This document shows positions 5,670 through 32,988 of a DNA stretch of 38,039 nucleotides, one piece after another (within the stretch, counting starts at the first letter, position 1; the number at the start of each line of letters is the position of its first letter). A program made the position numbers and the translations under genes. Under the pieces are notes generated by a model. It was given only the letters and a program-made list of their open reading frames with translations. It was not told the DNA's origin and did no database searches. The DNA lies in NCBI GenBank assembly GCA_026127925.1, contig JAJSLM010000009.1:1-38039 (forward strand), in the 5' to 3' direction. The stretch comes from Thermoplasmatales archaeon. GTDB taxonomy: Archaea > Thermoplasmatota > Thermoplasmata > Thermoplasmatales > Thermoplasmataceae.

Positions 5670-6899
5670 TCAATCCATTTTTTCCGATATCTTGTCCAAA
5701 ATTTCCTTCGTCTGTCGCAGATCGGCCTCAGTATGTGAGAAGCTAACGAAACATGTTTCCAACTTTGAACCGGGGATGAAAATTCCATTTTCTAGTAAAG
5801 AATTAAAGAACCTCGCGTACATAGTATCATCACTTCGTTGGGCGCCTTCATTATCAGTCACTTCATTCTTTGTGAAAAATACTGTGAACATGCCTCCGAC
5901 TCTATTTACTGTTACATCCATTTCCTGGTTTTTGAACGTTTTTTTGATGTGCTCAACAAGAGAGGCGGTGTATTTTTCTAATTTTCCATAATCTGCATGT
6001 CTAAGTTTATCCAAAGTAGCTATGCCGGCAGCCATAACAAGAGGATTTGCTGAAAATGTTCCTTGCTGGTAGAATTTTCCCTCAGGGGCAACTTTGCTCA
6101 TTATGTCTTTCCGTCCACCAAAAAGACCGACGGGAAGCCCACCTCCTATTATTTTCCCCAGGGTTGTTAGATCTGGCTTAATTTTTACGATATCCTGGTA
6201 ACCACCGAAATGGAATCGAAACCCAGTGATCACTTCATCGAATATCAGTAGGGAATCGTATTGCTGGGTTACAGATCTGGCATGTTTGAGGAATTCTATC
6301 CTGGGTGGTACAACGCCTACGTTACCCAGAACCGGTTCAAGGATCAGGGCCGCTATTCGCTTTCCGTATTTTTTGAACACTGACTCTAGCGCCTCTGAAT
6401 TATTAAATGGCACTTCAATGGTAACGTTTTTCGCACTGCCGTCAAAATCCCTATCTGTATTGAGCGACATGTCATGCGAACCGTGGAATCCTCCAGATAT
6501 CTTGACAAGTAAATCCCTGCCGGTAAAGTATCTGGCGAGTCTCAATACATGCATGGTTGCCTCAGTTCCAGAATTTGTAAATCTCATGTTTTCTATCGAA
6601 GATATGGCTGAACGTATGGTGTCACCAAGGTCTAGTTCTCGTAAGGTAGGCGCGCCAAACAGCGAACCGTCCAACGATTGTTCCTTTATGGCTGCAATAA
6701 CATTTTCATCGGCGTGCCCTAGGATCATAGGGCCAAAACCAAGGCAATAGTCAATGTATTCATTTCCGTCAATGTCAAAGATCCTTGATCCCTTGCCCCG
6801 TTGCATGAATCTTGGAAATGGCTGGTAAAACCTTACAGGAGAATTTACTCCGCCTGGAAAAAGATCCCTGGACAAATCAAAAAGTTCCTGAGAATGCAT
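5670..6899 (-). CDS. hemL: Glutamate-1-semialdehyde 2,1-aminomutase
   Basis: HemL makes 5-aminolevulinate from glutamate-1-semialdehyde, the last step of the C5 route into tetrapyrroles. The 409-residue length is close to the family norm. The product shows the N-terminal PGGVNSPVR motif, a PLP-binding segment with DEV (about residues 221-223), and Lys249 in TLGKIIGGG as the Schiff-base lysine. The GTEA motif near residue 111 is also typical. The ATG at 6899 lies about 27 bases from a TTAATTAATT box on this strand, so the mRNA is probably leaderless. A palindrome sits between box and start. hemA, which supplies the substrate, is not in the window. Confidence 0.95.
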   Translation of the reverse strand: MHSQELFDLSRDLFPGGVNSPVRFYQPFPRFMQRGKGSRIFDIDGNEYIDYCLGFGPMILGHADENVIAAIKEQSLDGSLFGAPTLRELDLGDTIRSAISSIENMRFTNSGTEATMHVLRLARYFTGRDLLVKISGGFHGSHDMSLNTDRDFDGSAKNVTIEVPFNNSEALESVFKKYGKRIAALILEPVLGNVGVVPPRIEFLKHARSVTQQYDSLLIFDEVITGFRFHFGGYQDIVKIKPDLTTLGKIIGGGLPVGLFGGRKDIMSKVAPEGKFYQQGTFSANPLVMAAGIATLDKLRHADYGKLEKYTASLVEHIKKTFKNQEMDVTVNRVGGMFTVFFTKNEVTDNEGAQRSDDTMYARFFNSLLENGIFIPGSKLETCFVSFSHTEADLRQTKEILDKISEKMD

Positions 6900-6932
6900 G
6901 ATAGTGTATTACTATCTGAAATTAATTAATTC
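6900..6932 (-). promoter_or_regulatory. hemL promoter with palindrome at the transcription start
   Basis: On the minus strand a TATA-like TTAATTAATT is centred near 6926, about 27 bases before the hemL ATG. Between box and ATG lies the inverted repeat GATAGT (6900-6905) / ACTATC (6911-6916) with a 5-base centre, where a bound repressor would block initiation. No regulator is known from this window, so the operator role is inference. Confidence 0.4.
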
Positions 6933-6972
6933 GCTGAGAAAGTATTATTCTTGAATTGTCATCTCCATTCGT

Positions 6973-7911
6973 ATGGTCAATTCAGATAAGTTCGTAAAGG
7001 AAGCAGTGGATAACATTCGATCAAATCTTAAGGGAAGGGGAATCCTTGCCTGCTCTGGTGGTCAGGACAGTTCGCTTCTCGCAGTCCTTTGTGCCATGGC
7101 AGACAGAGAGAACATCCTTGCCGTCTTTGTAGACACAGGATTATTGAGGAAAAACGAATCTGTCAGGGTAGAAAAACTATTCAGAAAATACGATATAAAC
7201 TATAGAATCATTGATGCCTCCTCCATGTTTTTTGAAGCTCTTCAAGGGATTACGGATCCAGAGCAAAAGAGAAAAACTATCGGTAAACTGTTCATAGACG
7301 TTTTTGAAAAAGTAGCTAAGGAGTTCGAGGCATCCACACTTCTTCAGGGTACAATTGCGCCTGACTGGATAGAGAGCGGTGGATCTGTAAGAGATACAAT
7401 AAAGAGCCACCACAATGTGGGAGGCTTACCAGAACATATGAAACTGAAACTTCTAGAACCACTGAGAGACCTTTATAAGGATGAAATTAGAGCCGTTTCC
7501 GATTACCTGAAAATGCCCACGGATCTTCAACCGTTTCCTGGTCCTGGTCTGGCAGTTCGAATAATCGGGGAGGTGACGAAGGAGAAGGTCGAGCTTCTTC
7601 AGAAAGTTACAGAGATCCTGGAGGCCAGCGTTGAAAAAGAATATCTCGATAGCTCGAAAAGACCATGGCAGTATTTTGCTGTACTCCTTCCGGTAAAAAC
7701 AACCGGCGTTCATGGAGACAAGAGAAGCTACGGTCAGTCAATAGCCATAAGAATGATTGATACTACGGATGCGATGTCCGGAACCTTTTCAAGACCTGAC
7801 TGGGAATTTCTTGAGAGGGTATCTACAGAAATAACTAATTCTGTCCCTGCAATAAACAGAGTAGTATACGATATCACTGATAAGCCTCCGGGAACAATCG
7901 AATGGGAATAA
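6973..7911 (+). CDS. guaAB: GMP synthase, ATP-pyrophosphatase subunit
   Basis: The 312-residue product is the synthetase half of GMP synthase, which adenylylates XMP and aminates it to GMP with ammonia from a separate glutaminase subunit. The PP-loop SGGQDSS is at about residues 28-34, and the GuaA dimerisation domain fills the C-terminal third, ending in the typical KPPGTIEWE. Most Archaea encode the two subunits separately, and only the ATPase subunit is seen here. A TATA-like AGTATTATTCT about 27 bases upstream of the ATG indicates a leaderless transcript, divergent from hemL with 73 bases between the genes. Confidence 0.93.
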
Positions 7912-7987
7912 AAGCACTAGACAGTTAATCACCTATTTTGGGAACTTTTTATATCAAAATTATCGAAATGCTTACTTTCGTCGAAAA

Positions 7988-8030
7988 TGTAAATATATAA
8001 GCTACCAATAACGAGGAGTGCAGAAAGGAG
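7988..8030 (+). promoter_or_regulatory. rps2 promoter and Shine-Dalgarno site
   Basis: A strong TATA-like AAATATATAA lies at about 7991-8000. The expected start of transcription, near 8021, is followed by GGAG at 8027-8030, 8 bases before the ATG at 8039. This favours that ATG over the in-frame GTG at 8018. Confidence 0.6.
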
Positions 8031-8038
8031 ATATATCA

Positions 8039-8641
8039 ATGGAAGAAGAACCGATGTTACTTTCAGAGGAAGATTACCAGAAATCTGGTGTTCACATAGG
8101 GACACAGGTAAAATCGAAAGATATGCAGGATTACATCTTCAAGATCAGGAATGATGGCCTTTATCTTTTGGACATAAAGAAAACGAACAGGGCAATAATA
8201 ATAGCAGGAAAGATGCTTAGCCGGTTTAAGCCCAGCGATATTCTTGTCGTGGCTCAGCGCCAGTATGCGTTTAAACCAGTGTCTCGTTTTTCCGAGGTTA
8301 TAGGAGCAGTCCCCCTTACGGGTCGATTTATACCCGGAACTTTGACAAATCCACAGCTTAACAGCTACATTGAGGCAAAAGTTGTAGTGATCACAGATCC
8401 TCTTGCTGATACACAGGTTATGAAGGAGGCAAGGTCCATTGGTGTCCCAATTATTGCGCTCTGTGATGCCAATAACAAGACGGATTTTGTTGATCTGGTG
8501 ATTCCTACTAATAATAAAGGACGCAGATCGCTCGCTGTGATATACTGGCTTCTCGCAAGAGAAATCATGAAAGATCGTGGCACAATCAGAGACTACAAAG
8601 AATTCAGTAATACAATTGACGATTTCGAGGCTCAGGTCTGA
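8039..8641 (+). CDS. rps2: 30S ribosomal protein S2 (archaeal uS2)
   Basis: The 200-residue product is uS2 of the small ribosomal subunit. The family signature GVHIGTQVKSKDM is near the N-terminus, followed by the conserved FIPGTLTNP (PGTLTN) segment and the ITDPLADTQ / IALCDANN stretch. Archaeal and eukaryotic S2 proteins share these features and lack the bacterial coiled-coil insertion, as here. The start at 8039 is supported by a GGAG site 8 bases upstream. The gene stands alone, without the enolase or RNA polymerase genes that often flank it in Archaea, and its last 10 bases overlap the convergent endA gene. Confidence 0.95.
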   Translation: MEEEPMLLSEEDYQKSGVHIGTQVKSKDMQDYIFKIRNDGLYLLDIKKTNRAIIIAGKMLSRFKPSDILVVAQRQYAFKPVSRFSEVIGAVPLTGRFIPGTLTNPQLNSYIEAKVVVITDPLADTQVMKEARSIGVPIIALCDANNKTDFVDLVIPTNNKGRRSLAVIYWLLAREIMKDRGTIRDYKEFSNTIDDFEAQV

Positions 8642-9582
8642 TTCGAAAAGAAATTGTCCTTTACCCTATTTATTTTTATATATAATATTTTTCCACCCAT
8701 ATCCCCTGCGAAAATCATAGTCTTTCTGACACCCTGAGCAACCCGGACAGCCCTGCTGATCTTATACCATTCTTCCGGCTCCTCTATAACATGCAAAAGA
8801 AATTCGGCGTGATCATCCATACTCCTTGAATAGAGTCTGAAGTTTGCGCCATATTTGAATCCCGAACGAACTATAAATCCTCTTTGGACAATATCAGAAA
8901 ATGCGCCCAACGTAACGCTTCCAAGTGCTTTTTTCTCATCATCCCCGCCAGAAAGCAATGCAGCTTCAAACTTGTTCAGAATCTTTAGGTCAGAGAATCG
9001 ATTTCCAAACCAGTCAGGTAATTTTCTTTCCGATACTATGTTTGTCCCATTTATCTGCTCAACATGAATGCCATTAAAGTCAGGTGTTCCAACATTCCCT
9101 CTGAGTTCTACAATTTCAGACGTAAACAAAGTGATACCATAATCGTCATCTATTGCAGCATAAACGTGTCCTGAATTTTCAAGCAGATCCTTAAAACTCA
9201 TCTTCTGATCTTCCTTTATAACAATTAATGGGCCGTTCGTGGGTCTCCTTGAATTATTGTCCCAAAAGAAGGCTTTGTAAATTACATTGACGAATAAGCC
9301 CTTCGATTTCAGGAACGTGTAAACCATGAACCTATCAAGAAACCCTTCATCATCAACGACTACGCTGAGTATACCTGCAGTAGAATTGAGAATTTTATCA
9401 AGAGGGGAGATTACCTTTTTCAGATACAAATAGAGGCATTCGTATTCATCGAGAATTAATTTTTTTCCTGAGATGTGGCCAAGTTTCATCTTGTTTATTA
9501 TAAACTCAGGCTTCTTGTTTATGGATATTTCAAAGGGAATGTCTTTAAAGAGAACCTCTGTTTTACCGTCACTCTTTTGCAT
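8632..9582 (-). CDS. endA: tRNA-splicing endonuclease, two-domain (alpha2) type
   Basis: EndA cuts introns out of pre-tRNA at the bulge-helix-bulge. The C-terminal half carries the complete catalytic triad in its family contexts: Tyr251 (FRLYSR), His258 (DDHAEF) and Lys287 (VRKTMIF), together with the GFKYGANFR and ISRAVRVAQGVRK segments. At 316 residues the protein matches the duplicated type found in Archaeoglobus and Thermoplasma. In that type the N-terminal half (about residues 1-135) is a degenerate, inactive copy used for structure. The start overlaps the end of the upstream GTPase gene by 14 bases, so the two are probably co-transcribed. The stop overlaps the rps2 stop region. Confidence 0.9.
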   Translation of the reverse strand: MQKSDGKTEVLFKDIPFEISINKKPEFIINKMKLGHISGKKLILDEYECLYLYLKKVISPLDKILNSTAGILSVVVDDEGFLDRFMVYTFLKSKGLFVNVIYKAFFWDNNSRRPTNGPLIVIKEDQKMSFKDLLENSGHVYAAIDDDYGITLFTSEIVELRGNVGTPDFNGIHVEQINGTNIVSERKLPDWFGNRFSDLKILNKFEAALLSGGDDEKKALGSVTLGAFSDIVQRGFIVRSGFKYGANFRLYSRSMDDHAEFLLHVIEEPEEWYKISRAVRVAQGVRKTMIFAGDMGGKILYIKINRVKDNFFSNQT

Positions 9583-10087
9583 AATAATTCTCTTTCATAA
9601 TATTTACACAATAATTAAGCAGTTCAGGAATACCCTCCCCGGTCTTTGCTGAAACGATGAAAAATTCAGTTTCAAATTTTTCTTTAATGTATTCTAGGTC
9701 TTCCTTCCAGATCTCAGCCTCGTACTTCATGTCAGATTTGTTTCCAACGACAACAAGTGGAAGCTTTTTATTGCCCACCTTAAAATTCTTTATGGCTGAG
9801 ATTGCATAATCAACGCTCTCCTTGTTCAAGATATCGACCGCGACGATGATCAGATTCATACCAAAGTAGAGTTTTTCAGTGCCTTGATCATTCTCAATTT
9901 CCTGAAAGAATATATCGGCAGTAACATTCTTACTTTCATGCTTAAAAGTTACCGCCTTCTTGAAGAAAGGTTTTGCCCTTCCTCCGAGATCGAATGTGCC
10001 ATATACAATGCGTGAAATTATTGAGGATTTGCCTGAACCTTTCATTCCGGTTACCCCGATCTTCCACGCTATCTTTTCACTGAACAC
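9569..10087 (-). CDS. Small Ras-like GTPase with unusual switch II
   Basis: The 172-residue product is a minimal P-loop GTPase: Walker A GMKGSGKS at residues 14-21, guanine-specificity motif NKSD at 116-119, and SAK at 146-148. The G3 motif DxxGQ, which normally positions the catalytic water, is not recognisable: the region reads IENDQGTEK (about 64-72). GTP hydrolysis may therefore be slow or need a partner. The GTG start at 10087 lies about 25 bases from a strong TATA-like AATATAATATAAAG on this strand, which indicates a leaderless transcript. The gene overlaps endA by 14 bases. Whether it takes part in tRNA splicing or merely shares an operon is unknown. Confidence 0.75.
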   Translation of the reverse strand: MFSEKIAWKIGVTGMKGSGKSSIISRIVYGTFDLGGRAKPFFKKAVTFKHESKNVTADIFFQEIENDQGTEKLYFGMNLIIVAVDILNKESVDYAISAIKNFKVGNKKLPLVVVGNKSDMKYEAEIWKEDLEYIKEKFETEFFIVSAKTGEGIPELLNYCVNIMKENYYAKE

Positions 10088-10175
10088 TCATATTTGATAG
10101 GTAACTTTATATTATATTTTTTCCCTCCAAATGCTAGTCCATGTCATGACTTTCAGCATAGTTATTAATACGGGT

Positions 10176-11063
10176 CTAAACATTGCCGGCTGTATTACGA
10201 AGGACCGAAGAAACTATAGAAGATATGGTCGCTTCCGAGTCGTTAGGGAGTGGTACTCTTTGGAAACTAACTCCATCCTGGGCAAGTCTTCCTTTCAGGT
10301 CTATATCAAGGTCATATAGTACTTCGAGGTGATCGTAAATGAAGCCTATAGGTACCGCTACCACGTTCTCTATTGAGTTCCTGCGGCAGAAACTTCGGAG
10401 ATATTCAAAATCTGGGCCGAGCCAGTTCTTTCCAAACGGACCTCTGCTGTGATAGACGATAAAAGGCCTGTCAATACCGGTAGCTGAGCAGATAGCAGAA
10501 GCGAGATCATTGATGTTTTTCGGATAAGGCTCATAGCCGTTTATAGGTACGCTGTGGCTTGTGAAAATGAAAAGACTCTTTCTGTCGCCTGTATCAAAAT
10601 TTTCATTTATATTATTTATGAAATGCTGCTGAAACGGCTTGTTGGAAGAGAGGTCGCTGACTCTGATACTTCGCTCTGAACGAACAGAGCTCTCAAATGG
10701 TCCGAAGTAAGAAGAGAAGATGAAGCTGGAATATATCGGAAACAATGGAACCTCCACAGAAATTTCAGGATTGCCTATCATTTCTTTTGCCTCATTTATT
10801 GAGGGTTTGACATGCTTCGCTATAAGAACTACTTTATAATCTGGCAGAAGTCTGCTCAGCGAATCTTCGACCTTGTCCCTGATTGCGCGGACTATTTTAA
10901 TGGAAGGCGACGTCCCCCCAAGCATAGCGATCTTCTTTTCATTTTCTTTTACTACGAATTCCGGCGGTTCTTTTCCCTTAAAAATATCTCTCAGATAATC
11001 CATCAAACCATCGGGATTTTCTGGAAAACCATAATACATCAGAACTACATACTTCGATGACAT
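10176..11063 (-). CDS. hemH: Ferrochelatase (possibly coproporphyrin type)
   Basis: HemH inserts ferrous iron into a porphyrin. The 295-residue product is a short, soluble ferrochelatase with the catalytic histidine in TSHSVP (His170) and the conserved glutamate in the YDHLEVLYDLD segment (Glu247). There are no C-terminal membrane or iron-sulfur extensions. Its size and the EVLYDLD form resemble Gram-positive ferrochelatases that act on coproporphyrin III, so this organism may make heme by the coproporphyrin route. That would need a coproheme decarboxylase and a porphyrinogen oxidase, neither of which is in the window. The gene overlaps hemE by 19 bases and is probably translated from the same mRNA. 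Confidence 0.88.
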   Translation of the reverse strand: MSSKYVVLMYYGFPENPDGLMDYLRDIFKGKEPPEFVVKENEKKIAMLGGTSPSIKIVRAIRDKVEDSLSRLLPDYKVVLIAKHVKPSINEAKEMIGNPEISVEVPLFPIYSSFIFSSYFGPFESSVRSERSIRVSDLSSNKPFQQHFINNINENFDTGDRKSLFIFTSHSVPINGYEPYPKNINDLASAICSATGIDRPFIVYHSRGPFGKNWLGPDFEYLRSFCRRNSIENVVAVPIGFIYDHLEVLYDLDIDLKGRLAQDGVSFQRVPLPNDSEATISSIVSSVLRNTAGNV

Positions 11064-12025
11064 CTGAACTGCCTCACCCTATCTGAAATTTCAATAAGTT
11101 TTTTCACGTCCGTATAAGGGGGAATTCCATGGCCCAGGTTAAAGACGTGCCCCCGGAATCTTTTCCCTTCTTCCAGTATGCGATCTGTTTCCCTCATCAA
11201 CACTCCTGTGTCAGATGACAGCAGATATGGATCAAGGTTGCCCTGAACAGGCCTGTCGTTATCAATCTTTGAAAACTGGTCAAGTGTGAGTCTCCAGTCT
11301 ATCGATATACAATCATAGCTCAATTCTGTGATCTGGTTGTAGAGGTGCGATGCCCCCTCAGCAAAAAATATAACGGGCTTACCAAGTCTCTTTATGTCCT
11401 CTACAAAGTCCTTTTCCACGTCGTTTAGGTACTTTCTGAAAAGGTTGGAAGAGAGCGAGCCAATCCAACTGTCGAATATCTGAATTACCTCGACACCCGC
11501 ATTGACCTGCACTTTTGCATAATCAAGAATGGCGTCAATTACAGGATCCAACTGATCCTTCAAGGCGCCTTCTTCCAGTATCCTCTTTGTTTCGGGATAT
11601 CCCGTTTTTCTTCCGTCAAAAATATAGGAGGCGACAGTAAATGGTCCACCTACGAATCCAATCACTGTTTTTTCTGTCTGGCTGAGTTTGTTCAGCGCCT
11701 TTGATGTGGACCTGCTAATACGATCATAAAGATTCTTCGCTGTGTAATCCTCCGATATTCTGAGATTCTCATCGTAATGTATCATTCTACCGGTTTTTAA
11801 AAGCGGAACAAGCAGATCAGAGAAAATTATTATCCCATCAGGATCGTAATACCTTAATGGAAGACTGCTTACGGACGCCATAGTCTCGAAATTAAGGAGC
11901 ATGTTCAGGAAACCTTCTTTGCGGAATTCAGCAAATTCTGGGAGATATCGGCCAGCCTGCCTCATGTACCAAAACGGTACTCTTTCTGTTTCTTCCCCCT
12001 TTAAGGTCTGAAGTAAAATTTTCAC
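11045..12025 (-). CDS. hemE: Uroporphyrinogen decarboxylase
   Basis: HemE removes four carboxyl groups from uroporphyrinogen III to give coproporphyrinogen III. The 326-residue product carries the family signature WYMRQAGRYLPEF at about residues 19-31 and the second signature region with GFVGGPFTVASYIFDG. The translation start is a GTG at 12025, with a TATA-like TTATTTACTTATT about 22 bases upstream, so a leaderless mRNA is likely. It overlaps hemH by 19 bases and is divergent from hemC, with about 200 bases between. Most Archaea make heme from siroheme without HemE, so this gene marks the less common route. Confidence 0.93.
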   Translation of the reverse strand: MKILLQTLKGEETERVPFWYMRQAGRYLPEFAEFRKEGFLNMLLNFETMASVSSLPLRYYDPDGIIIFSDLLVPLLKTGRMIHYDENLRISEDYTAKNLYDRISRSTSKALNKLSQTEKTVIGFVGGPFTVASYIFDGRKTGYPETKRILEEGALKDQLDPVIDAILDYAKVQVNAGVEVIQIFDSWIGSLSSNLFRKYLNDVEKDFVEDIKRLGKPVIFFAEGASHLYNQITELSYDCISIDWRLTLDQFSKIDNDRPVQGNLDPYLLSSDTGVLMRETDRILEEGKRFRGHVFNLGHGIPPYTDVKKLIEISDRVRQFRCHRSM

Positions 12026-12243
12026 TCGCCATTAATCATAGAATAAGTAAATAACTTTGCCAGTGAATCCATAACAGCTTTAGATCCTGAAACGTTATAC
12101 AGTGCTCCTCGGCAACAAAAAAAGCTACGGATAGAACCAGGTACTGGCGTCATAGTGTTTTGAGTCATTTAACTTATAAGAATCGAGAGTTTCGCAACAA
12201 TGCATACAAATAGATTTTTACTGTGTTTAAGATGAGGGAACGG

Positions 12244-13095
12244 ATGCAAAAAGTCAGAATAATAACTCGGGGAAGTGATCTTGCACTCAGGCAAACCAGT
12301 GAGATTTCTAGGGCTCTTGAGGGCGCATCCATTGGTGTCGAGGTATTAACAACAAAATCCATTGGCGACATTAACAATTCTTCTCCTATTTATGACATGG
12401 GTAGTGACGGTGTCTTTGTTTCATCACTCAACAAAGCTGTTCTTGATGAAGAGGCCGATATTGCAGTCCACTCGGCTAAAGATATGCCGTCATTTATTGA
12501 TCCCGGGCTCGACGTTATTTATTTTTCCAAGAGAGGAGATCCCCATGATTTCTTCGTTTCCAAAACTCCATTGAACGAATTCAGGGGAACGATAGGAACA
12601 AGCTCCGTCAGGAGGAAGTCCTACATATCGCTGTTAGCAAAAGACGTAAAATTTTCAGTGATACGAGGAAATATAAACACCAGGATAAACAAGTGTCTCA
12701 GCGGAGAATATGACGCTACTGTCGTAGCAAAGGTTGCGCTTGATCGCTTGGGTCTGAATCCCCCAGGGTTCGTTTTCTCCGAGCGTGATCTTCCCCCTGA
12801 TCCAAACCAAGGTTTCATTGCAGTAGTAGCCCGCAAGGGAGATCCCATTGCTGATTTTTTTAAGAAAATCCAGGATCCTGTTTCACTTTGGGAGGCGTCA
12901 GCGGAGAGACGTGTTTTAAGAGAGCTTGGCCTGGGATGCAACTTTCCTGTCTCCCTTCGTGGTAAATTCCCGGACAAGAAAATGTACTTCTCTGCAGTAA
13001 TAGACGATTCAAGAGCTGATATGGATTTGGATTTTTCAGAGGAATCTCAGATTAAAGGCTCAATAGTGAAAATCGGTGATACACTTGGCAAATAA
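12244..13095 (+). CDS. hemC: Porphobilinogen deaminase (hydroxymethylbilane synthase)
   Basis: HemC condenses four porphobilinogens into hydroxymethylbilane. From the ATG at 12244 the product has 283 residues. It shows the N-terminal TRGSDLALRQ motif, the catalytic aspartate in HSAKDMPS (Asp80), the GTSSVRR arginine loop that binds the growing chain, and Cys232 in GLGCNFP, which anchors the dipyrromethane cofactor. Two earlier in-frame starts exist (GTG 12223, ATG 12232). I prefer 12244 because homologues begin just before the TRGS motif and GAGG lies 6 bases upstream. The end overlaps hemD by 20 bases. Confidence 0.93.
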   Translation: MQKVRIITRGSDLALRQTSEISRALEGASIGVEVLTTKSIGDINNSSPIYDMGSDGVFVSSLNKAVLDEEADIAVHSAKDMPSFIDPGLDVIYFSKRGDPHDFFVSKTPLNEFRGTIGTSSVRRKSYISLLAKDVKFSVIRGNINTRINKCLSGEYDATVVAKVALDRLGLNPPGFVFSERDLPPDPNQGFIAVVARKGDPIADFFKKIQDPVSLWEASAERRVLRELGLGCNFPVSLRGKFPDKKMYFSAVIDDSRADMDLDFSEESQIKGSIVKIGDTLGK

Positions 13096-13747
13096 CGAGG
13101 TTGCTTACGTTGGAGCAATGCCTGAATCAAAGCTTGAAGGAATTTTATACGTCCCTGTTCTCGATATTGAATACGTTAGGATCTCCGACATACCTGTGTT
13201 AACAGGCAACATCGTGATAATGTCAAAACGTGGAGTAAATTCCCTCAAGATGTCTGGAATCAGGATTGAGAATGCAAATGCCATTTGCATAGGGAACAAG
13301 ACTGCTGAATCGCTTTTAGAAAACTATGGTATTAGTTCAATTTATCCCGACAACATGAATTCACGTGGACTGCTTGAACTGATAATCGCCAAGGGTTGGA
13401 AAAGCCTGGAACTTATAGGAAGCGATCATACCTCACAATGGTTTCTGGATGGTTTGAAGAAAAAAAACATACTTGTTAACTATGTCAAGGCGTACAGGAT
13501 CATACCATCGAAATATACGGCATCAATGGACGAACTCTCAAAGGTTAAATCCATTCTTTTTGGTTCTTCTCTCTCCTTTAAATATTTCATAGATAAATAT
13601 GGCACACGAGCGCTAGGCGACAAGAAATTATTTGCTATCGGAGAGAAAAGTGCAGAAACAATGAGACAATATGGATATCCCTCCCGCAACGTGGAGGAAC
13701 ACCCTGATATAAACGCAATCCTGGAAAAGATTGAATCCGAGACATAG
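13076..13747 (+). CDS. hemD: Uroporphyrinogen-III synthase
   Basis: HemD closes hydroxymethylbilane to uroporphyrinogen III with inversion of ring D. The family is very divergent in sequence. The 223-residue length, the two-domain alternation of strands and helices, the segment FGSSLSFKYFIDKYG (family pattern of Ser/Thr then a hydrophobic helix) and the late IGEKSAETMRQYG motif (family pattern IGxxTAxxxxxxG) support the call. So does its place directly after hemC. The start is a GTG inside hemC with a 20-base overlap, which suggests translational coupling. A TTG a few codons later is an alternative start. Confidence 0.85.
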   Translation: MIHLANNEVAYVGAMPESKLEGILYVPVLDIEYVRISDIPVLTGNIVIMSKRGVNSLKMSGIRIENANAICIGNKTAESLLENYGISSIYPDNMNSRGLLELIIAKGWKSLELIGSDHTSQWFLDGLKKKNILVNYVKAYRIIPSKYTASMDELSKVKSILFGSSLSFKYFIDKYGTRALGDKKLFAIGEKSAETMRQYGYPSRNVEEHPDINAILEKIESET

Positions 13748-14023
13748 TTTTCTATTGTCTCCTCTCAAATTGAAATTTTTACCTTGCGGGAAGAACGCTA
13801 GTTAGACCATCATTACTCCCAAAAAGCATAAATGGTGACTGCGTCCGCTATCGCGTCTATTTAATCATCGAAAAGTATTTTGCGAATTATAAGCAGACTC
13901 CCGTTTCCAAACTGTTTCTTTGAGTGTTTCACAACAGTCATACTGATAAAGTTATCAGATTGATTGTTATGTGGGTATTGCCAGTGTACATAGTTTAAAG
14001 AACACCGCTGGCGATGATGATTT
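13748..14023. other. Intergenic region upstream of hemB with a perfect palindrome
   Basis: No gene is seen. CTGATAA (13943-13949) and TTATCAG (13952-13958) form a perfect inverted repeat around AG, about 65 bases before the hemB start. A TATA-like AGTTTAAAG lies near 13990-13998, about 30 bases before hemB. The palindrome is therefore upstream of the promoter, where an activator or regulator could bind. This is a candidate only. Confidence 0.35.
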
Positions 14024-15001
14024 ATGCCGATCTATCCTGAGATGAGAATGAGACGTTTGCGAAGAACAGAGAATTTAAGGGGAATCTTCTCTGAAAATGT
14101 TGTAAGAAGAGAGAGCTTGATAATGCCAATGTTTTTTGACGAGACTATAGGGGATAAGGAAGAAATTAGTACAATGCCGGGTATATATCATTATTCTCTT
14201 GATTCCGGCATTGAAAAGGCAAAGGAGTATGAAAGGACTGGAATTAGTTCAGTACTCTTATTCGGAATACCGAAAATAAAGGATTCGACAGGAAGTCAAT
14301 CCTACGCTACAGACGGCATAGTCCAAAGGGCGATACTGGAATTAAAGAAGAAAACTTCTCTCAACGTTTTTGCAGACCTCTGCATGTGTGAATATACGGA
14401 TCATGGTCATTGTGGCATCCTGTCCGGCGACTATGTAGACAACGACAAAACATTGGTGGAATACAGAAAAATTGCCCATTCTTATGCTGATGCTGGCGTC
14501 GATGTCGTTGCACCCTCTGGTATGATGGACGGCCAGGTAAAGGCAATCCGGGAAGAACTCGATCAGAGCGGATTCAAAAATACTATAATAATGGGATACA
14601 GTGCAAAGTTTGCAAGTTCCATGTACGCTCCTTTCAGGGAAGCGGCGCATTCTGCACCTTCTTTTGGAGATCGCAGATCATATCAGATGAACTTCGCAAA
14701 TTCCCGCGAAGCGATGCGTGAAATAGAAGAAGATATTTCGGAGGGCGCTGACATAATTATGGTGAAGCCAGCCATGTTCTACCTTGATCTCGTGCGTGAA
14801 GCTAGAAACACGTTCTCACTGCCTCTGGCTGTCTACAATGTGAGCGGTGAATACTCAATGATAATGAATGCTGCAAAATACGAGTTGATCGATAGAAAAA
14901 GCGTCGTGAAGGAACTGCTAACTTCGTTCAAAAGGTCTGGCGCAGACTTGATTATAAGCTATTTTTCGGAGTATGCGATAAAAGAAGGAATTGCGAGATA
15001 G
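14024..15001 (+). CDS. hemB: Porphobilinogen synthase (5-aminolevulinate dehydratase), zinc type
   Basis: HemB joins two 5-aminolevulinates into porphobilinogen. The 325-residue product shows both Schiff-base lysines, Lys195 in GYSAKFASS and Lys248 in IMVKPAMFYLD. The active-site zinc cysteines Cys120, Cys122 and Cys130 are in DLCMCEYTDHGHCG, so the enzyme is of the zinc-dependent class rather than the magnesium class, which has aspartates there. The ATG at 14024 follows a TATA-like box by about 30 bases. The gene follows hemC-hemD on the same strand, 276 bases away and with its own promoter. Confidence 0.95.
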   Translation: MPIYPEMRMRRLRRTENLRGIFSENVVRRESLIMPMFFDETIGDKEEISTMPGIYHYSLDSGIEKAKEYERTGISSVLLFGIPKIKDSTGSQSYATDGIVQRAILELKKKTSLNVFADLCMCEYTDHGHCGILSGDYVDNDKTLVEYRKIAHSYADAGVDVVAPSGMMDGQVKAIREELDQSGFKNTIIMGYSAKFASSMYAPFREAAHSAPSFGDRRSYQMNFANSREAMREIEEDISEGADIIMVKPAMFYLDLVREARNTFSLPLAVYNVSGEYSMIMNAAKYELIDRKSVVKELLTSFKRSGADLIISYFSEYAIKEGIAR

Positions 15002-26180: not shown

Positions 26181-29100
26181 ATGAGAAAAGCATTGCTTTT
26201 AAGCCTAGTAATTATTGTGAGTGTAGTTTTTATTGCCACATCGTTTGTAGTCCTTTCACACAGCACAGGTACGCCACAACAGAGTACTGGTGTACTGAAT
26301 GTGATCCCAGATTCTGCTGTAGGTGTTGTATCCAACATCCAGCCTTCTGGTCTAGAAAATCCTGCGAAACAGCTGAGCGTCATAGTTTCGTTAGCATACA
26401 GGAACCAGGGAGAACTTAATACCGTCCTATCTAACCTGCAAAATCCTTCTTCTCCGATATACCATCACTATCTTACCCAGCAGCAGTTTATAAGCACGTT
26501 CTCTCCAACAGTAAGCGAGTACGACAACTACATGGCGTACTTTGCCGAGCACGGACTCCTGGTGAAGGTTTATGGAGATCGTGTATCGCTCGTACTTACA
26601 GGAACGGTCAGCCAGTTTGAAAGCGTGTTCCATACCACCATTAGCTCGTTTAACAATGGAGAATTTTATGCCCCCTCTTCAGCTCTTTACATTTCTGCGA
26701 ATTTCGGCCCGATCTCAGGTATCGCCGGATTAAGTGATCAGTTCAAGGCAAAGATCTCGCCAATGTTTCAAGGCTCCGGAACATCCCAGACGCTGTACGG
26801 TGCAGACTTTCAGTCCGCATATCAGTTAAATCAGCTTTACGCAAAGTACGGATATCCCACAAATGAAACTATTGCGACAATCCTGTGGTCAGGAAACAAT
26901 TCTGCAGGACAGGATGTTGCACCCTTTGTACCGTCAGATATATCCTATTACTATGAGCACAACATACCGTCAAACGAACCCCTGCCTGTGGCATACGGGT
27001 ATCCTATCCTAGGCGCTCCAGCGCCGGGTCCTTCAGCGGCGAATGATAACACTGAGGCAGATTTCGAAAGCACACTGGATCTCGAGATGGCAGGATCTGC
27101 TGCTCCAGGCGCGCACATTGTCGAGGTGTACGGACCTTCTGCTACCGAATCGGATCTTGATCAGGCATTTGCCGCTGTTCTGAATCCAAATTATAACACA
27201 TCGGTGGACAACGCACTCTCTCATGTGGTCGCAATATCCAACTCATGGGGAGGTACAGATACAAATGATTCGACGTGGATGCAATATGAAGAAGAAGCAG
27301 CGGCGAGAGGCATAACAGTTCTTGCCTCTTCCGGTGACGATGGGGATACCAGCAGCCCGGCTCCAAGTTTCCCTGCGACAATGGCATATAACGACTTTGG
27401 AACGCTGGCTGTCGGTGGACTCTCTACCGAGTTGACCGGAACTGCAAGCACGAATGGCTCCGGCACCACCGGAATCCAGACAGAATCTGTGTGGTATAAC
27501 ACCCCGAATTCCGGTGATGGTTCACAAGGCGGAGTAAGCTCAGTATTTTCAGAGCCATCATGGCAGGTGAATTCATCGGACGCCAATTCTGTTATCACAG
27601 GTGCTTCAAGTACGACAGGTGTTTCTTCCGGCAGGGGAACTCCTGATGTCGCTGCGGATGGAGCGAACATGGAGATATATATAACATATAGCGGCTCCAG
27701 TGGATATCAAGAACTCTGGGGAACAAGCATAGCATCGCCCCTCACTGCAGGCCTAATAGCAGTAATGGATCATTCCCTTGGAACTCCGGAAGGCTTCATC
27801 GATCCGCTCATATACAAATTCGGGCAGGAACAGTATTCCGGGACATTCGGAAGACCTGCGGCTTTATACTTTGTGAGCAACGGTTCGAACGGTGCGTTTA
27901 GTGCTGAAAACGGCTATAGTCTTGCGGTTGGTTGGGGAAGCATAAATGCATTTAACTTTGTCAATGCACAGCTGAATGTCTCCGTCACACAGGCCAGTTA
28001 TCCTGTGGACTTCTCTGAATCGGGCCTTCCATCTGGGACTACATGGTCTGTGACGTTTAACGGCAATACGCAGAGTTCGTCCGGTTCTACAGTGTCCTTC
28101 TCGGCTGCAAATGGAACCTATTCGTACTCAATTGGTTCTGTATCGGGATATACCGCATCTCCCTCCTCGGGATCGGTAACTGTAAACGGAGCTGCCCAGA
28201 CCATAGGGATAACATTCGCCGCCAACTCCTCTCCACCTCCCTCAACGTCTGGTGTTTTTTCGCAGGTAAACGCGACGTCTTCAAACATTTACACATACAA
28301 CCTTCCAGAGGCTGAGGAGTTCACAGTGGGCTCAAGCAGCAGGACAATTAATTTCGTCACTCTTTACTTATCTGGCAGTAGCGGATCGGTGGAATTTTCA
28401 ATCGGGACCTCGCTGTGGAGTTCTAATATCGTTCCAGAGACCACTGTTAATGTCAATTCCAATCAACTCTGGTACAATACCTCAATTACACCAGTAAATC
28501 TCAGCGGAAGCACCGACTATTACCTTTCTGTTGAGGGATCCGGGAGTATACAATGGGGTTATACCTCGTCGCCTTCTGTAGATCTTAACGCCATTCAGGA
28601 CTATTGGTACAGTTCGCCACCAAGCAATGGAATGCCATCAGGTACCCCTACAAATGATAATTCATATCCCGATCTATATAGTATCGGTTATTTTACTTCC
28701 ACTCAGCCTGTCGTTGCCACTTTCGCCGTCGATTTCAGTGAATCTGGGCTTCCAAGCGGCACTTCTTGGTCAGTTACATTCAATGGAAACACAAAGAGTT
28801 CAACAACATCCCAGTTAAGCTTTTTGGTGTCAAATGGAACATATTCCTACTCCGTAGGGAGTGTTTCAGGGTATTCCGTGTCTCCCTCCTCGGGATCGGT
28901 AACTGTGAATGGAGCTGCTCAGACTGTTGATCTAAGCTTTTCTACTCAGACCAGCTCACATCCAAACGGAATTTTTGCGGAAGTAAATGCCACATCTTCA
29001 AACATTTACACATACAACCTTCCAGAAGCTGAGGAGTTCACAGTAGGTTCCAGCAGTCAGTATGTAGATTTCATAACACTCTATCTGGAAGGCGCAGGAA

Positions 29101-29483
29101 CAATCGATGTTGGAATCGGAACCTCCCTATTCAGTAACAACGTGGTTAACGTATCATCGGTTTCTATTGATTTGCCCAACGGTGGCTTTATGAACATATC
29201 GATACCTACGACAGAACTGTCAGGTGGAGCAGACTATTATCTCAACGTCGTCGAACCGTCTGGGAACACGAATGTGCAGTGGGGGTACACAATGTCACCT
29301 TCTGTTGACAATAATGCTTTACAGGATTACTGGTACAGTGGAACAAGCCTTCAAAGCGACAATAGTTATCCAGACATATTCACTATAGGCTATTCTGGCT
29401 TATCTGCGAGCAGCAGTTCATTTGCTCAATACTCCCCTTTTCTATCTATGACTGCTTTCTTCGCAATCCCGCGTCTACTTTAA
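26181..29483 (+). CDS. Secreted sedolisin (S53) protease with duplicated C-terminal domains
   Basis: This 1100-residue acid-type serine-carboxyl protease has a signal peptide (about 1-26) and a pro-kumamolisin activation domain (about 40-190). The S53 catalytic domain (about 205-600) shows the family residues Glu296 and Asp300 (DFESTLDLE), Asp386 (SSGDDG) and Ser516 (GTSIASP), with spacing like kumamolisin. Then follow two copies of a two-part unit. Part A, about 75 residues (from 608 and 848), begins VDFSESGLPSGT. Part B, about 145 residues (from about 690 and 930), contains NATSSNIYTYNLPEAEEF. The copies are also similar at DNA level, about 720 bases apart. Many NxS/T sequons suggest glycosylation. 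No clear C-terminal membrane anchor is seen. The role would be digestion of external protein at low pH. Confidence 0.92.
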   Translation: MRKALLLSLVIIVSVVFIATSFVVLSHSTGTPQQSTGVLNVIPDSAVGVVSNIQPSGLENPAKQLSVIVSLAYRNQGELNTVLSNLQNPSSPIYHHYLTQQQFISTFSPTVSEYDNYMAYFAEHGLLVKVYGDRVSLVLTGTVSQFESVFHTTISSFNNGEFYAPSSALYISANFGPISGIAGLSDQFKAKISPMFQGSGTSQTLYGADFQSAYQLNQLYAKYGYPTNETIATILWSGNNSAGQDVAPFVPSDISYYYEHNIPSNEPLPVAYGYPILGAPAPGPSAANDNTEADFESTLDLEMAGSAAPGAHIVEVYGPSATESDLDQAFAAVLNPNYNTSVDNALSHVVAISNSWGGTDTNDSTWMQYEEEAAARGITVLASSGDDGDTSSPAPSFPATMAYNDFGTLAVGGLSTELTGTASTNGSGTTGIQTESVWYNTPNSGDGSQGGVSSVFSEPSWQVNSSDANSVITGASSTTGVSSGRGTPDVAADGANMEIYITYSGSSGYQELWGTSIASPLTAGLIAVMDHSLGTPEGFIDPLIYKFGQEQYSGTFGRPAALYFVSNGSNGAFSAENGYSLAVGWGSINAFNFVNAQLNVSVTQASYPVDFSESGLPSGTTWSVTFNGNTQSSSGSTVSFSAANGTYSYSIGSVSGYTASPSSGSVTVNGAAQTIGITFAANSSPPPSTSGVFSQVNATSSNIYTYNLPEAEEFTVGSSSRTINFVTLYLSGSSGSVEFSIGTSLWSSNIVPETTVNVNSNQLWYNTSITPVNLSGSTDYYLSVEGSGSIQWGYTSSPSVDLNAIQDYWYSSPPSNGMPSGTPTNDNSYPDLYSIGYFTSTQPVVATFAVDFSESGLPSGTSWSVTFNGNTKSSTTSQLSFLVSNGTYSYSVGSVSGYSVSPSSGSVTVNGAAQTVDLSFSTQTSSHPNGIFAEVNATSSNIYTYNLPEAEEFTVGSSSQYVDFITLYLEGAGTIDVGIGTSLFSNNVVNVSSVSIDLPNGGFMNISIPTTELSGGADYYLNVVEPSGNTNVQWGYTMSPSVDNNALQDYWYSGTSLQSDNSYPDIFTIGYSGLSASSSSFAQYSPFLSMTAFFAIPRLL
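28004..29390 (+). repeat. Two tandem copies of a ~720-bp unit inside the sedolisin gene
   Basis: Stretches such as CCCTCCTCGGGATCGGTAAC recur at 28161 and 28884, and TCAAACATTTACACATACAA at 28281 and 28998, giving a period of about 717-723 bases. The middle of each unit has diverged more than these blocks, which suggests an older duplication with conserved or recombining segments. Confidence 0.85.
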
Positions 29484-30621: not shown

Positions 30622-32016
30622 TTATGTTACTGTTTTTTCTGTAGAAGTTTTTTCCGAAGACCTGCCCAAGGTAATTGTTATTATAATTATTGCTATCACC
30701 AAGAGGGAAAGTCCGATCGCCTCAGGAATCCAGAACAGGGTAATTACATAAGCTAGTAACCCAAACGCAGCAATGACTGTTCCTGCTACAATGAAATAAA
30801 CAATAATCCTTTTCTCTGTTTCGTGTCCTTCTATATAGTGGATTATAAGAAGTATTATGCCTGCCAATAACGGCATCATGAAAAAGGCAAAGAGTAAATG
30901 CCCGTCTGTAAACGCCATGTCATATTTGTATCCTGGACCACCATTTGGCGGTACTCCCGGTGAACCGAATCCGTAATAAGATTCATTGAATTCCATCGCA
31001 TAACCAACTCCGATCATCACGGCCATTGTTGCGATCCATGTTAATAATTCGGACAGCTGAACCAAACGATCGGTGGGTCTTTTCGAAAGGACATAATAGA
31101 GTCCGAGTATAGCTATCAACGCCCCCCAACCAACAATCCCCGTCTGGGTATCGTCCAGAGCCAGGCCATTCATTCCTCCGGGGCCAAATGGTGCAACGGC
31201 AGGGATCACATAAGTTCCAAAAGATGAAATCAGATAAAGATAAGTAAATGAAATAGTCCCAAGAACAGCTATGATCATCCCAAGATTTACGGCGTTACGC
31301 TTGAAATTCGATAGTTTTTCGTATCCAAAAGTTACTGCAGCAAGAGCGACGATCCCACCCATGACTGCAGGTAACATCTCATGAGAATGCGAAGTTATTA
31401 GGTTACCAAGAAAAACCTGCAGACCACCAATGCTCGAAATATAGTTGTTGAATACAGGCAAGGAGGAGAAACCGAATAAAGTCCCGTACTCATAAATCAT
31501 CCCCATTATTGCCGCAATGCCTGCCGAAAGCGTTGCAATCACGATGAGTGAATATGCCCCCCAGATTTTCTTGAATTTCTCTCTGTTCCTAAACGGTAAA
31601 AAGAGTAATTCAAGGAAGAATATTAATGCGAGGACGATCATCCAGAAGTCTCTCATCGCCTGGATCACATAATCCGCGGTTTGAGTAGAGGCTGGGTAAA
31701 ATAGAGCAGTTCCAAGAGCAGTCAAGAATAGGACCGGGTAGGTGCTAAGGTTTATAATTCTTCTTGATCTTGTTCCAAGTTCTAGTAGTTCAGCTGAATA
31801 CATAATCAACAGGAAAACAAATGGAATCATAACAGTATGATAGAAATTTACCATGTCAAGACTGAAGTCACCAAGCTTGAACCAGTTAACTCCTGGGAGA
31901 AGTGGGCTTATCACCAAAAGTGCTGATATAAATATTAGTATGGCAAAGATATTGTACTTCACGTTTAGTAACCCTCTAATCACTCCATTAGCAGGTAATC
32001 CTTTATTTTTTACCAT
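30622..32016 (-). CDS. 12-helix membrane protein with candidate heme-ligand histidines
   Basis: I do not recognise the family of this 464-residue protein. It has 12 hydrophobic helices. Its few histidines are placed suggestively: His60 in helix 2 (NFYHTVM), His210 and His212 entering helix 6 (TSHSHEMLP), His373 at the start of helix 10 (TDGHLLF), then His393 and His398. Heme-copper oxidase subunit I also has 12 helices, with heme or copper ligands in helices 2, 6, 7 and 10. The paired histidines expected in helix 7 are not seen. The divergent neighbour is heme O synthase. A distant, perhaps heme-b-only relative of oxidase subunit I or NorB is a reasonable inference, unproven. GGAGG lies 6 bases before the ATG. 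Confidence 0.6.
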   Translation of the reverse strand: MVKNKGLPANGVIRGLLNVKYNIFAILIFISALLVISPLLPGVNWFKLGDFSLDMVNFYHTVMIPFVFLLIMYSAELLELGTRSRRIINLSTYPVLFLTALGTALFYPASTQTADYVIQAMRDFWMIVLALIFFLELLFLPFRNREKFKKIWGAYSLIVIATLSAGIAAIMGMIYEYGTLFGFSSLPVFNNYISSIGGLQVFLGNLITSHSHEMLPAVMGGIVALAAVTFGYEKLSNFKRNAVNLGMIIAVLGTISFTYLYLISSFGTYVIPAVAPFGPGGMNGLALDDTQTGIVGWGALIAILGLYYVLSKRPTDRLVQLSELLTWIATMAVMIGVGYAMEFNESYYGFGSPGVPPNGGPGYKYDMAFTDGHLLFAFFMMPLLAGIILLIIHYIEGHETEKRIIVYFIVAGTVIAAFGLLAYVITLFWIPEAIGLSLLVIAIIIITITLGRSSEKTSTEKTVT

Positions 32017-32041
32017 TCACATCCTCCGATTATCTGACCGC

Positions 32042-32072
32042 TATATTTAAACGAGTGAACCGATATATTAGG
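32042..32072. promoter_or_regulatory. Divergent promoter region between the 12-helix gene and ctaB
   Basis: CGATATATTAGG (32061-32072) can act as TATA for ctaB, whose ATG lies about 32 bases away. Read in reverse it is a TATA about 50 bases before the 12-helix gene, leaving a leader with the GGAGG site (32023-32027). A second box, TATATTTA (32042-32049), lies closer to the minus-strand gene. Confidence 0.45.
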
Positions 32073-32097
32073 GTACACTGATTTACGGTTTACGGCG

Positions 32098-32988
32098 ATG
32101 AATTATAATCAAATGACTAAAGTGCTGAATCGAGCAATGGTTTATCTTAAATATACGAAACCAAGGGTATGGTTGCTTCTCGTTTTTGTAGGGGGAGTGG
32201 GCGCCATTCTTGCGGCCCAGACTTTTGGAGGGTATAATCTGATGATGATCTTCGTTGCTGTTGTTTCCCTGATCGCTGGCAGTGCCGGTTCAGAAGCAAT
32301 CACGAATTATGTGGACAGAGATATAGATTCGATCATGAATAGAACTAAGGACAGGCCATTAGTAACGGGAAAAATTGAAGCTAAGAAGGGTCTAGAACTG
32401 GGGATAATTCTTGTAATATCTTCCGTGCTGATACTGCTTGTTTTTAAGAGATTCCTGGCCTTTTGTTTCATTACCGCAGGGATCGTTGATAACGTTATTG
32501 TGTACAGTTACCTCCTGAAGCGTAAGACACCATGGAGTATCATCTTAGGTGGATTCTCGGGTGGACTGCCCGTCATAGTTGGATGGTACACTCTCACGTC
32601 CGTGTTTTCGATACTTCCCTGGTTCTTATTTGCGCTGATCGTAGTTTGGATACCAATACACATATGGAGCCTTGCTTTCCGTTATAAGGATGATTATCAG
32701 CGTGCAAAGGTGCCTATGCTTCCAGCGGTTTATTCAGACGGGATTTCCGCGAAATGTATATCATTTTCGGCAATTCTTCTCGTCGTATTCTCCGTTATTC
32801 CCTACTACTTTGGTGAAAACACGTTTATATACATCTTAATCGTAGCTATTGTATCCCTGCCAATGATTCTGTTGGCGGCTATGTTCGTAAAAATGAAAGA
32901 TAAAAAAAGTTCCTTTCGCCTCTTTAAGTATTCAAGTCCCTACCTCACTGTGATTTTTCTGTTGTTTCTCATCCTTAAATTCTTTTAA
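32098..32988 (+). CDS. ctaB: Protoheme IX farnesyltransferase (heme O synthase)
   Basis: CtaB attaches a farnesyl chain to protoheme to make heme O, the precursor of heme A, for heme-copper oxidases. The 296-residue product is a UbiA-superfamily prenyltransferase with about nine hydrophobic helices. It has the first aspartate motif NYVDRDIDSIMNRTKDRP (about residues 70-87) and the second, basic motif FRYKDDYQRAKVPMLP. LGGFSGGLPVIVGW between them is typical of the CtaB/COX10 branch. Its presence implies protoheme is made, in line with the hem genes of this window. It is divergent from the 12-helix histidine protein, with 81 bases between. Confidence 0.93.
   Translation: MNYNQMTKVLNRAMVYLKYTKPRVWLLLVFVGGVGAILAAQTFGGYNLMMIFVAVVSLIAGSAGSEAITNYVDRDIDSIMNRTKDRPLVTGKIEAKKGLELGIILVISSVLILLVFKRFLAFCFITAGIVDNVIVYSYLLKRKTPWSIILGGFSGGLPVIVGWYTLTSVFSILPWFLFALIVVWIPIHIWSLAFRYKDDYQRAKVPMLPAVYSDGISAKCISFSAILLVVFSVIPYYFGENTFIYILIVAIVSLPMILLAAMFVKMKDKKSSFRLFKYSSPYLTVIFLLFLILKFF

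Follow-up and report, generated by a model that had tools for sequence, protein, structure and literature searches.

P0001, a predicted oxidase-fold membrane protein without CuB ligands, is encoded beside a heme O synthase in Thermoplasmatales archaea

The window analyzed here is a stretch of 38,039 nucleotides (positions 1 to 38,039 of the forward strand of contig JAJSLM010000009.1, assembly GCA_026127925.1). It belongs to the 1.73-Mb genome of a Thermoplasmatales archaeon, G000, whose relatives are Thermoplasmatales-type archaea. Two genes in it, P0001 and ctaB, diverge from a short spacer, and a set of heme biosynthesis genes lies on the same contig:

30622 to 32016, minus strand: P0001, a 464-aa protein with 12 transmembrane (TM) helices and a predicted heme-copper-oxidase fold (open reading frame list, AlphaFold, PDB fold search)
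31837 to 31839, minus strand: codon of His60 in TM2, computed from the open reading frame start at 32016; conserved in 60 of 60 members
31381 to 31389, minus strand: codons of His210-Ser211-His212, the HxH of TM6, computed from the same start; H210 conserved in 60 of 60 members, H212 in 59 of 60
30898 to 30900, minus strand: codon of His373 in TM10, computed from the same start; conserved in 60 of 60 members
32017 to 32097, no strand: divergent intergenic region of 81 bp between P0001 and ctaB, AT-rich and TATA-like by sequence, partially conserved
32098 to 32988, plus strand: ctaB (P0002), a heme O synthase of 296 aa (profile cut-offs), of the P0001-linked paralogue type and not COX1 linked (tree)
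5670 to 15001, no strand given: heme biosynthesis genes (Pfam matches)

By Pfam, the heme biosynthesis genes run in the order of a class-III aminotransferase read as hemL, then hemH, hemE, hemC, hemD, and hemB. P0002 exceeds the curated cut-offs of two heme O synthase profiles, NF003349 (285 bits against 246) and TIGR01473 (275 bits against 210), and its start lies 81 bp from that of P0001, just as the original prediction of a protein divergent from heme O synthase had it. The TATA-like core of the spacer is partly kept in close relatives, and a control region common to both genes is plausible. Elsewhere in the window, positions 344 to 1986 encode a relative of type III sulfide:quinone reductase, whose best NCBIfam match (NF049943) falls below the cut-off, followed by a 165-aa open reading frame that reads like a putative DUF1641-type partner. 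Positions 26181 to 29483 encode a secreted protein of 1,100 aa, a putative sedolisin-type acid protease with repeated beta domains.

An AlphaFold2 model of P0001, made from an alignment of 27 sequences (mean pLDDT of 83, pTM of 0.85), contains exactly 12 TM helices, with the following residue boundaries by DSSP, where some helices are interrupted by one or two residues in the DSSP string:

TM1 to TM6: 19-39, 53-77, 82-106, 109-143, 152-181, 199-230
TM7 to TM12: 237-266, 287-309, 314-348, 361-394, 399-426, 430-460

The model places His60 in TM2, His210 and His212 in TM6, and His373 in TM10, in agreement with the twelve helices and the histidines of helices 2, 6, and 10 that had been read from the DNA. 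The helix-7 histidine pair, which had been noted as missing, is indeed absent: TM7 (residues 237 to 266) of P0001 has no histidine, and no conserved histidine occurs there across 60 members of the family. Conservation of the four histidines in orthologues had been proposed as a check, and an alignment of 60 distinct members confirms it, with H60, H210, and H373 present in all 60 and H212 in 59, the sole exception being a tyrosine in I-plasma (L014/L077). This pattern of histidine conservation in the aligned sequences is far above chance. The remaining histidines of P0001, H393 and H398, fall outside the conserved columns, and helix 10 has only H373 of an HxH, as positions -2 and +2 are not conserved histidines in the 60 members. 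Further residues invariant in the same alignment (n = 60) are N205, Y232, Y261, P272, D288, D289, E342, E345, D366, and F378. On a positive-inside reading, the Lys and Arg residues counted in the termini and loops favor an N terminus on the inside, and the conserved histidines and acidic residues are all predicted to lie on the outer side of the membrane. The invariant outer-side acidic residues suggest a functional site.

Neither P0001 nor its family profile has a match in Pfam (including PF00115), NCBIfam, or the PDB sequences, and weak matches scatter over unrelated families. Searched against the PDB, the P0001 model has matches with a probability above 0.9 only to subunit I of ba3 oxidase, quinol-dependent NO reductase (qNOR), cbb3 oxidase, mitochondrial-type oxidase, and cNOR. 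A second, independent AlphaFold2 model, of the bacterial family member L086 (27% identical to P0001; pLDDT of 81, pTM of 0.87), matched ba3, aa3, cbb3, and qNOR at a probability of 1.00, with E-values down to 3e-3. For these two models, most TM scores to oxidase or NO reductase subunit I are about 0.45 to 0.60 (0.43 to 0.60 for P0001), the Foldseek E-values of the oxidase matches range from 0.003 to 1, and RMSD values are 7 to 9 Å. MATE, MFS, and receptor folds reached TM scores below 0.3 in the same searches, and a viral structure library returned no meaningful match. Profile-profile comparison by hhalign gave weak scores of 31 to 37 for the P0001 family against pooled heme-copper oxidase or A-type profiles, versus 16 to 21 for MFS and CydA decoys and 18 to 24 for reversed profiles, and no signal against a profile of NO reductases only.

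The predicted scaffold consists of 12 helices in three four-helix arcs, with no CuB site. Arc 3 of P0001 resembles arcs 1 and 2 (E-values of 4e-4 to 1e-3), and an MxP motif occurs in TM2, TM6, and TM10; arcs 1 and 3 of the oxidases are likewise similar to each other (about 2e-6 to 5e-6). The best match of P0001 arc 2 is to oxidase helices IX to XII, where H210-x-H212 aligns with the oxidase HxH (E = 0.0013), and a second match to helices IX to XII comes from arc 3, with H373 on the first histidine of the HxH (E = 0.013). These predictions support the view that P0001 shares the fold of heme-copper oxidase and NO reductase subunit I, the very layout that the original prediction had recognized and that both models reproduce. 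The suggestion of a "degenerate oxidase" holds insofar as P0001 appears to be a fold relative without the helix-7 pair. The term would mislead if taken to imply decay, since P0001 has an invariant set of its own (N205, Y232, Y261, P272, D288, D289, E342, E345, and D366), and the family is intact and conserved, not a decayed gene. Kinship with NnrS or CtaA, which had also been raised, finds no sequence support, there being no Pfam match. The earlier reading had the anatomy right and came close to the type of protein.

Of the 117 genomes in the order, 54 contain a homologue of P0001 (53 with an E-value of 1e-20 or lower, and one with a fragment). Other archaeal homologues come from records titled Hestiella, Acidilobaceae, Nitrososphaerota, and Thermoprotei, and bacterial homologues are found in Alicyclobacillaceae bacterium I2511 and another Bacillota metagenome-assembled genome, the most distant sharing 25 to 27% identity with P0001. 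The Alicyclobacillaceae genome (G061) carries three paralogues, 77 to 81% identical, on separate contigs (C161, C178, and C232), and the second Bacillota genome has one fragment; the gene neighbors of these bacterial members are not informative. A plasmid search for P0001 returned no matches. Interrupted copies, in two frames or in two pieces of one frame, were observed at L076 (9941 to 11527) and on contig C23 of G506 (103094 to 104635), suggesting occasional gene loss or insertion. The family is an undescribed membrane protein of acidophilic archaea, within the order and beyond it, and of a few Bacillota.

P0001 tends to occur near a CtaB gene. With 8 kb as the limit, 73 of the 142 strong CtaB copies in the order are close to COX1, 24 are close to P0001, none to both, and 45 to neither. 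The start coordinates are 0.9 to 1.9 kb apart for 22 of the 24 CtaBs near P0001, and chance proximity would be expected at about 1% per genome. The pair occurs in three arrangements, namely divergent (the window), with CtaB downstream (L056, L058, L078, and L081 to L083), and with CtaB upstream (L055), which suggests repeated selection for proximity. All but one of the 54 genomes with P0001 encode CtaB, and the lone exception is 76% complete. Among P0001-containing genomes that lack COX1 and are at least 80% complete, all ten have exactly one CtaB; five of these belong to the genus Thermoplasma (g6; 98 to 99% complete), where COX1 is absent by profile search and CtaB is kept. Moreover, the COX1-linked CtaBs form a single clade (support of 100/96) and the P0001-linked CtaBs fall outside it, in a tree flagged for long branches. 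The P0001-linked CtaB is apparently dedicated to P0001. Copy number was also considered as proof of a dedicated enzyme. Two CtaBs occur in 33 of 40 COX1-containing genomes with P0001 versus 14 of 36 without it, an excess with p = 1e-4 over all genomes, 0.007 at a completeness of at least 80%, and 0.39 at 90% or more, by a statistic that ignores phylogeny. This argument is weakened by the nonsignificant excess at the highest completeness and by at least six genomes (G009, G010, G018, G019, G026, and G034) that have two CtaBs and no P0001.

Linkage to heme genes extends to I-plasma-type genomes, where P0001 lies beside hemH, hemE, hemL, hemC, and hemD (hemH being a ferrochelatase by Pfam and the others being assigned from sequence and clustering). 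These heme clusters also include a small membrane protein of the CopD family (PF05425; L077, 17262 to 17768, and relatives), a possible candidate for the protoporphyrinogen oxidase step. The genome of the window has a canonical coxB-COX1-cupredoxin-like-ctaB cluster on contig C7 (L089, 7396 to 10956), which contains its second heme O synthase, and it encodes cytochrome bd, which is also found in Thermoplasma and others. Because this genome has both a full COX cluster and cytochrome bd, P0001 is an addition to its terminal oxidases and not a substitute for them. A complex-III-type cytochrome b (PF13631) is present in Thermoplasma and most P0001 carriers and could be a customer of CtaB. Another complex that contains heme a, though it is not complex IV, is the ba complex described from acidophilic archaea such as Acidianus (PMC12808453). 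Nevertheless, two genomes (G043 and G052) have P0001 and CtaB without COX1 or this cytochrome b. In two others (G046, C1:214768; G049, C163:5986), which are 88 to 91% complete, CtaB is an orphan without a known user, as no COX1, P0001, or PF13631 cytochrome b was found. No gene for a subunit II, a Rieske protein, or a cupredoxin adjoins P0001.

We propose, with a probability of about 0.5, that P0001 is an oxidase-fold membrane heme protein without CuB, which probably holds two hemes with four histidines, probably uses a prenylated heme, and has a redox role. The two hemes would most likely sit at the four outer-side histidines of helices 2, 6, and 10, with the helix-6 HxH in the middle, the place that helix X takes in oxidases. 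Of the two, at least one is probably prenylated, as a product of the neighboring CtaB. The redox role would most likely be played in the respiratory membrane, where P0001 may be an electron-transfer cytochrome that connects the quinone pool to an extracytoplasmic partner or, as another option, a copper-free reducer of a small diatomic ligand; from the features above we infer the heme, its type, the pairing of its ligands, and the electron donor and acceptor alike. A more detailed proposal, tentative and in its entirety rather improbable, is that the family forms its own branch within the oxidase fold, where the helix-6 HxH binds both hemes, His60 and His373 supply the other ligands, and the protein works as a respiratory cytochrome or gas reductase that contains two hemes (prenyl-heme) and no copper and has a dedicated heme O synthase. 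If so, the helix-6 branch may put the pseudo-threefold scaffold of the oxidases to a different use, or may represent an older version of it. P0001 is a concrete candidate for the reason that Thermoplasma, with no heme-copper oxidase by profile search, keeps a heme O synthase, and it is a testable candidate for a new respiratory component of extreme acidophiles.

The position of P0001 next to CtaB, and in other lineages next to hemH, hemE, hemL, hemC, and hemD, would also fit a role in heme O/A metabolism, with P0001 taking heme O from CtaB to carry, insert, or oxidize it, much as a heme A synthase or a heme delivery factor would. The near absence of full-length CtaA from 61 relatives (at the PF02628 level) points the same way. 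However, P0001 is missing from many near-complete genomes with COX1 (G003, G009, G010, G013, G019, and others), and it is therefore not generally needed for oxidase maturation; a heme A synthase required by COX1 was rejected as a simple account for this reason. Thermoplasma has P0001 without COX1, and P0001 is predicted to fold like oxidase subunit I rather than like the eight-helix CtaA. Compact "type 0" heme A synthases have been reported in Thermoplasmatales (PMC8239418, PMC12808453). We regard a role in heme O/A metabolism as possible but unlikely.

The predicted fold, the presence of P0001 in respiring genomes without COX1, and the pairing of an invariant outer-side acidic cluster with an HxH would fit another reading, that P0001 is a catalytic terminal oxidase or NO reductase in which His210/His212 together with D288, D289, E342, E345, and D366 form a new second metal site in place of CuB or FeB. 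We consider this distinctly improbable, given that helix 7 has no ligands, helix 10 has one histidine against two in the oxidases, no subunit II is encoded nearby, and H212 is a tyrosine in I-plasma; an extra oxidase is also not required, because Thermoplasma and others have cytochrome bd. Least probable of all is that this oxidase-fold protein has lost heme binding and serves instead to transport metals or protons or to act as a membrane scaffold. Heme binding is, after all, a deduction, no heme family matches by sequence, and clusters of histidines and acidic residues are able to bind metal ions. Yet the histidines keep the helices (2, 6, and 10) and the outer-side depth of their oxidase counterparts, and the gene is linked to heme genes.

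Among known membrane heme proteins, NnrS, CtaA, and CydA were considered as homes for P0001, and none has profile support. NnrS is a heme membrane protein with 12 TM helices, as predicted for P0001, but its profile (PF05940) is unmatched in every member scanned. Cytochrome bd subunit CydA (PF01654) is a quinol-linked membrane heme protein from the same genomes, but PF01654 is unmatched, the hhalign score is at decoy level, and CydA is absent from the fold matches. CtaA/Cox15 (PF02628) has four conserved membrane histidines and a ctaB neighbor in common with P0001. It has 8 helices (or 4 in compact forms) in contrast to 12, it is absent from the PDB fold matches, PF02628 is unmatched, and P0001 is not required by genomes with COX1.

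The closest likeness is to heme-copper oxidase and NO reductase subunit I, which P0001 resembles in its 12 TM helices, predicted fold, and predicted N-in topology. Histidines of helices 2, 6, and 10 lie close to the outer side, as in the oxidases, and helices 6 and 10 weakly resemble oxidase helix X by profile. In these enzymes, a helix-7 histidine pair holds CuB or FeB, the HxH of helix 10 (X) provides ligands for both hemes, and a helix-2 histidine serves the low-spin heme. P0001, in contrast, has no PF00115 match, no helix-7 ligands for CuB or FeB, and no adjoining subunit II gene; it has a single histidine in helix 10 and an HxH in helix 6 instead, together with invariant outer acidic residues. 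Because the CuB ligands and the helix-10 HxH are missing family-wide and PF00115 is unmatched, we do not class P0001 as a heme-copper oxidase, and these missing features do not weaken the claim of fold kinship or of a role as a heme protein. A conserved metal centre is the hallmark of the oxidase/NO reductase scaffold, and a widespread family that keeps this fold and the heme-type histidines without that centre would show that the scaffold has other uses.
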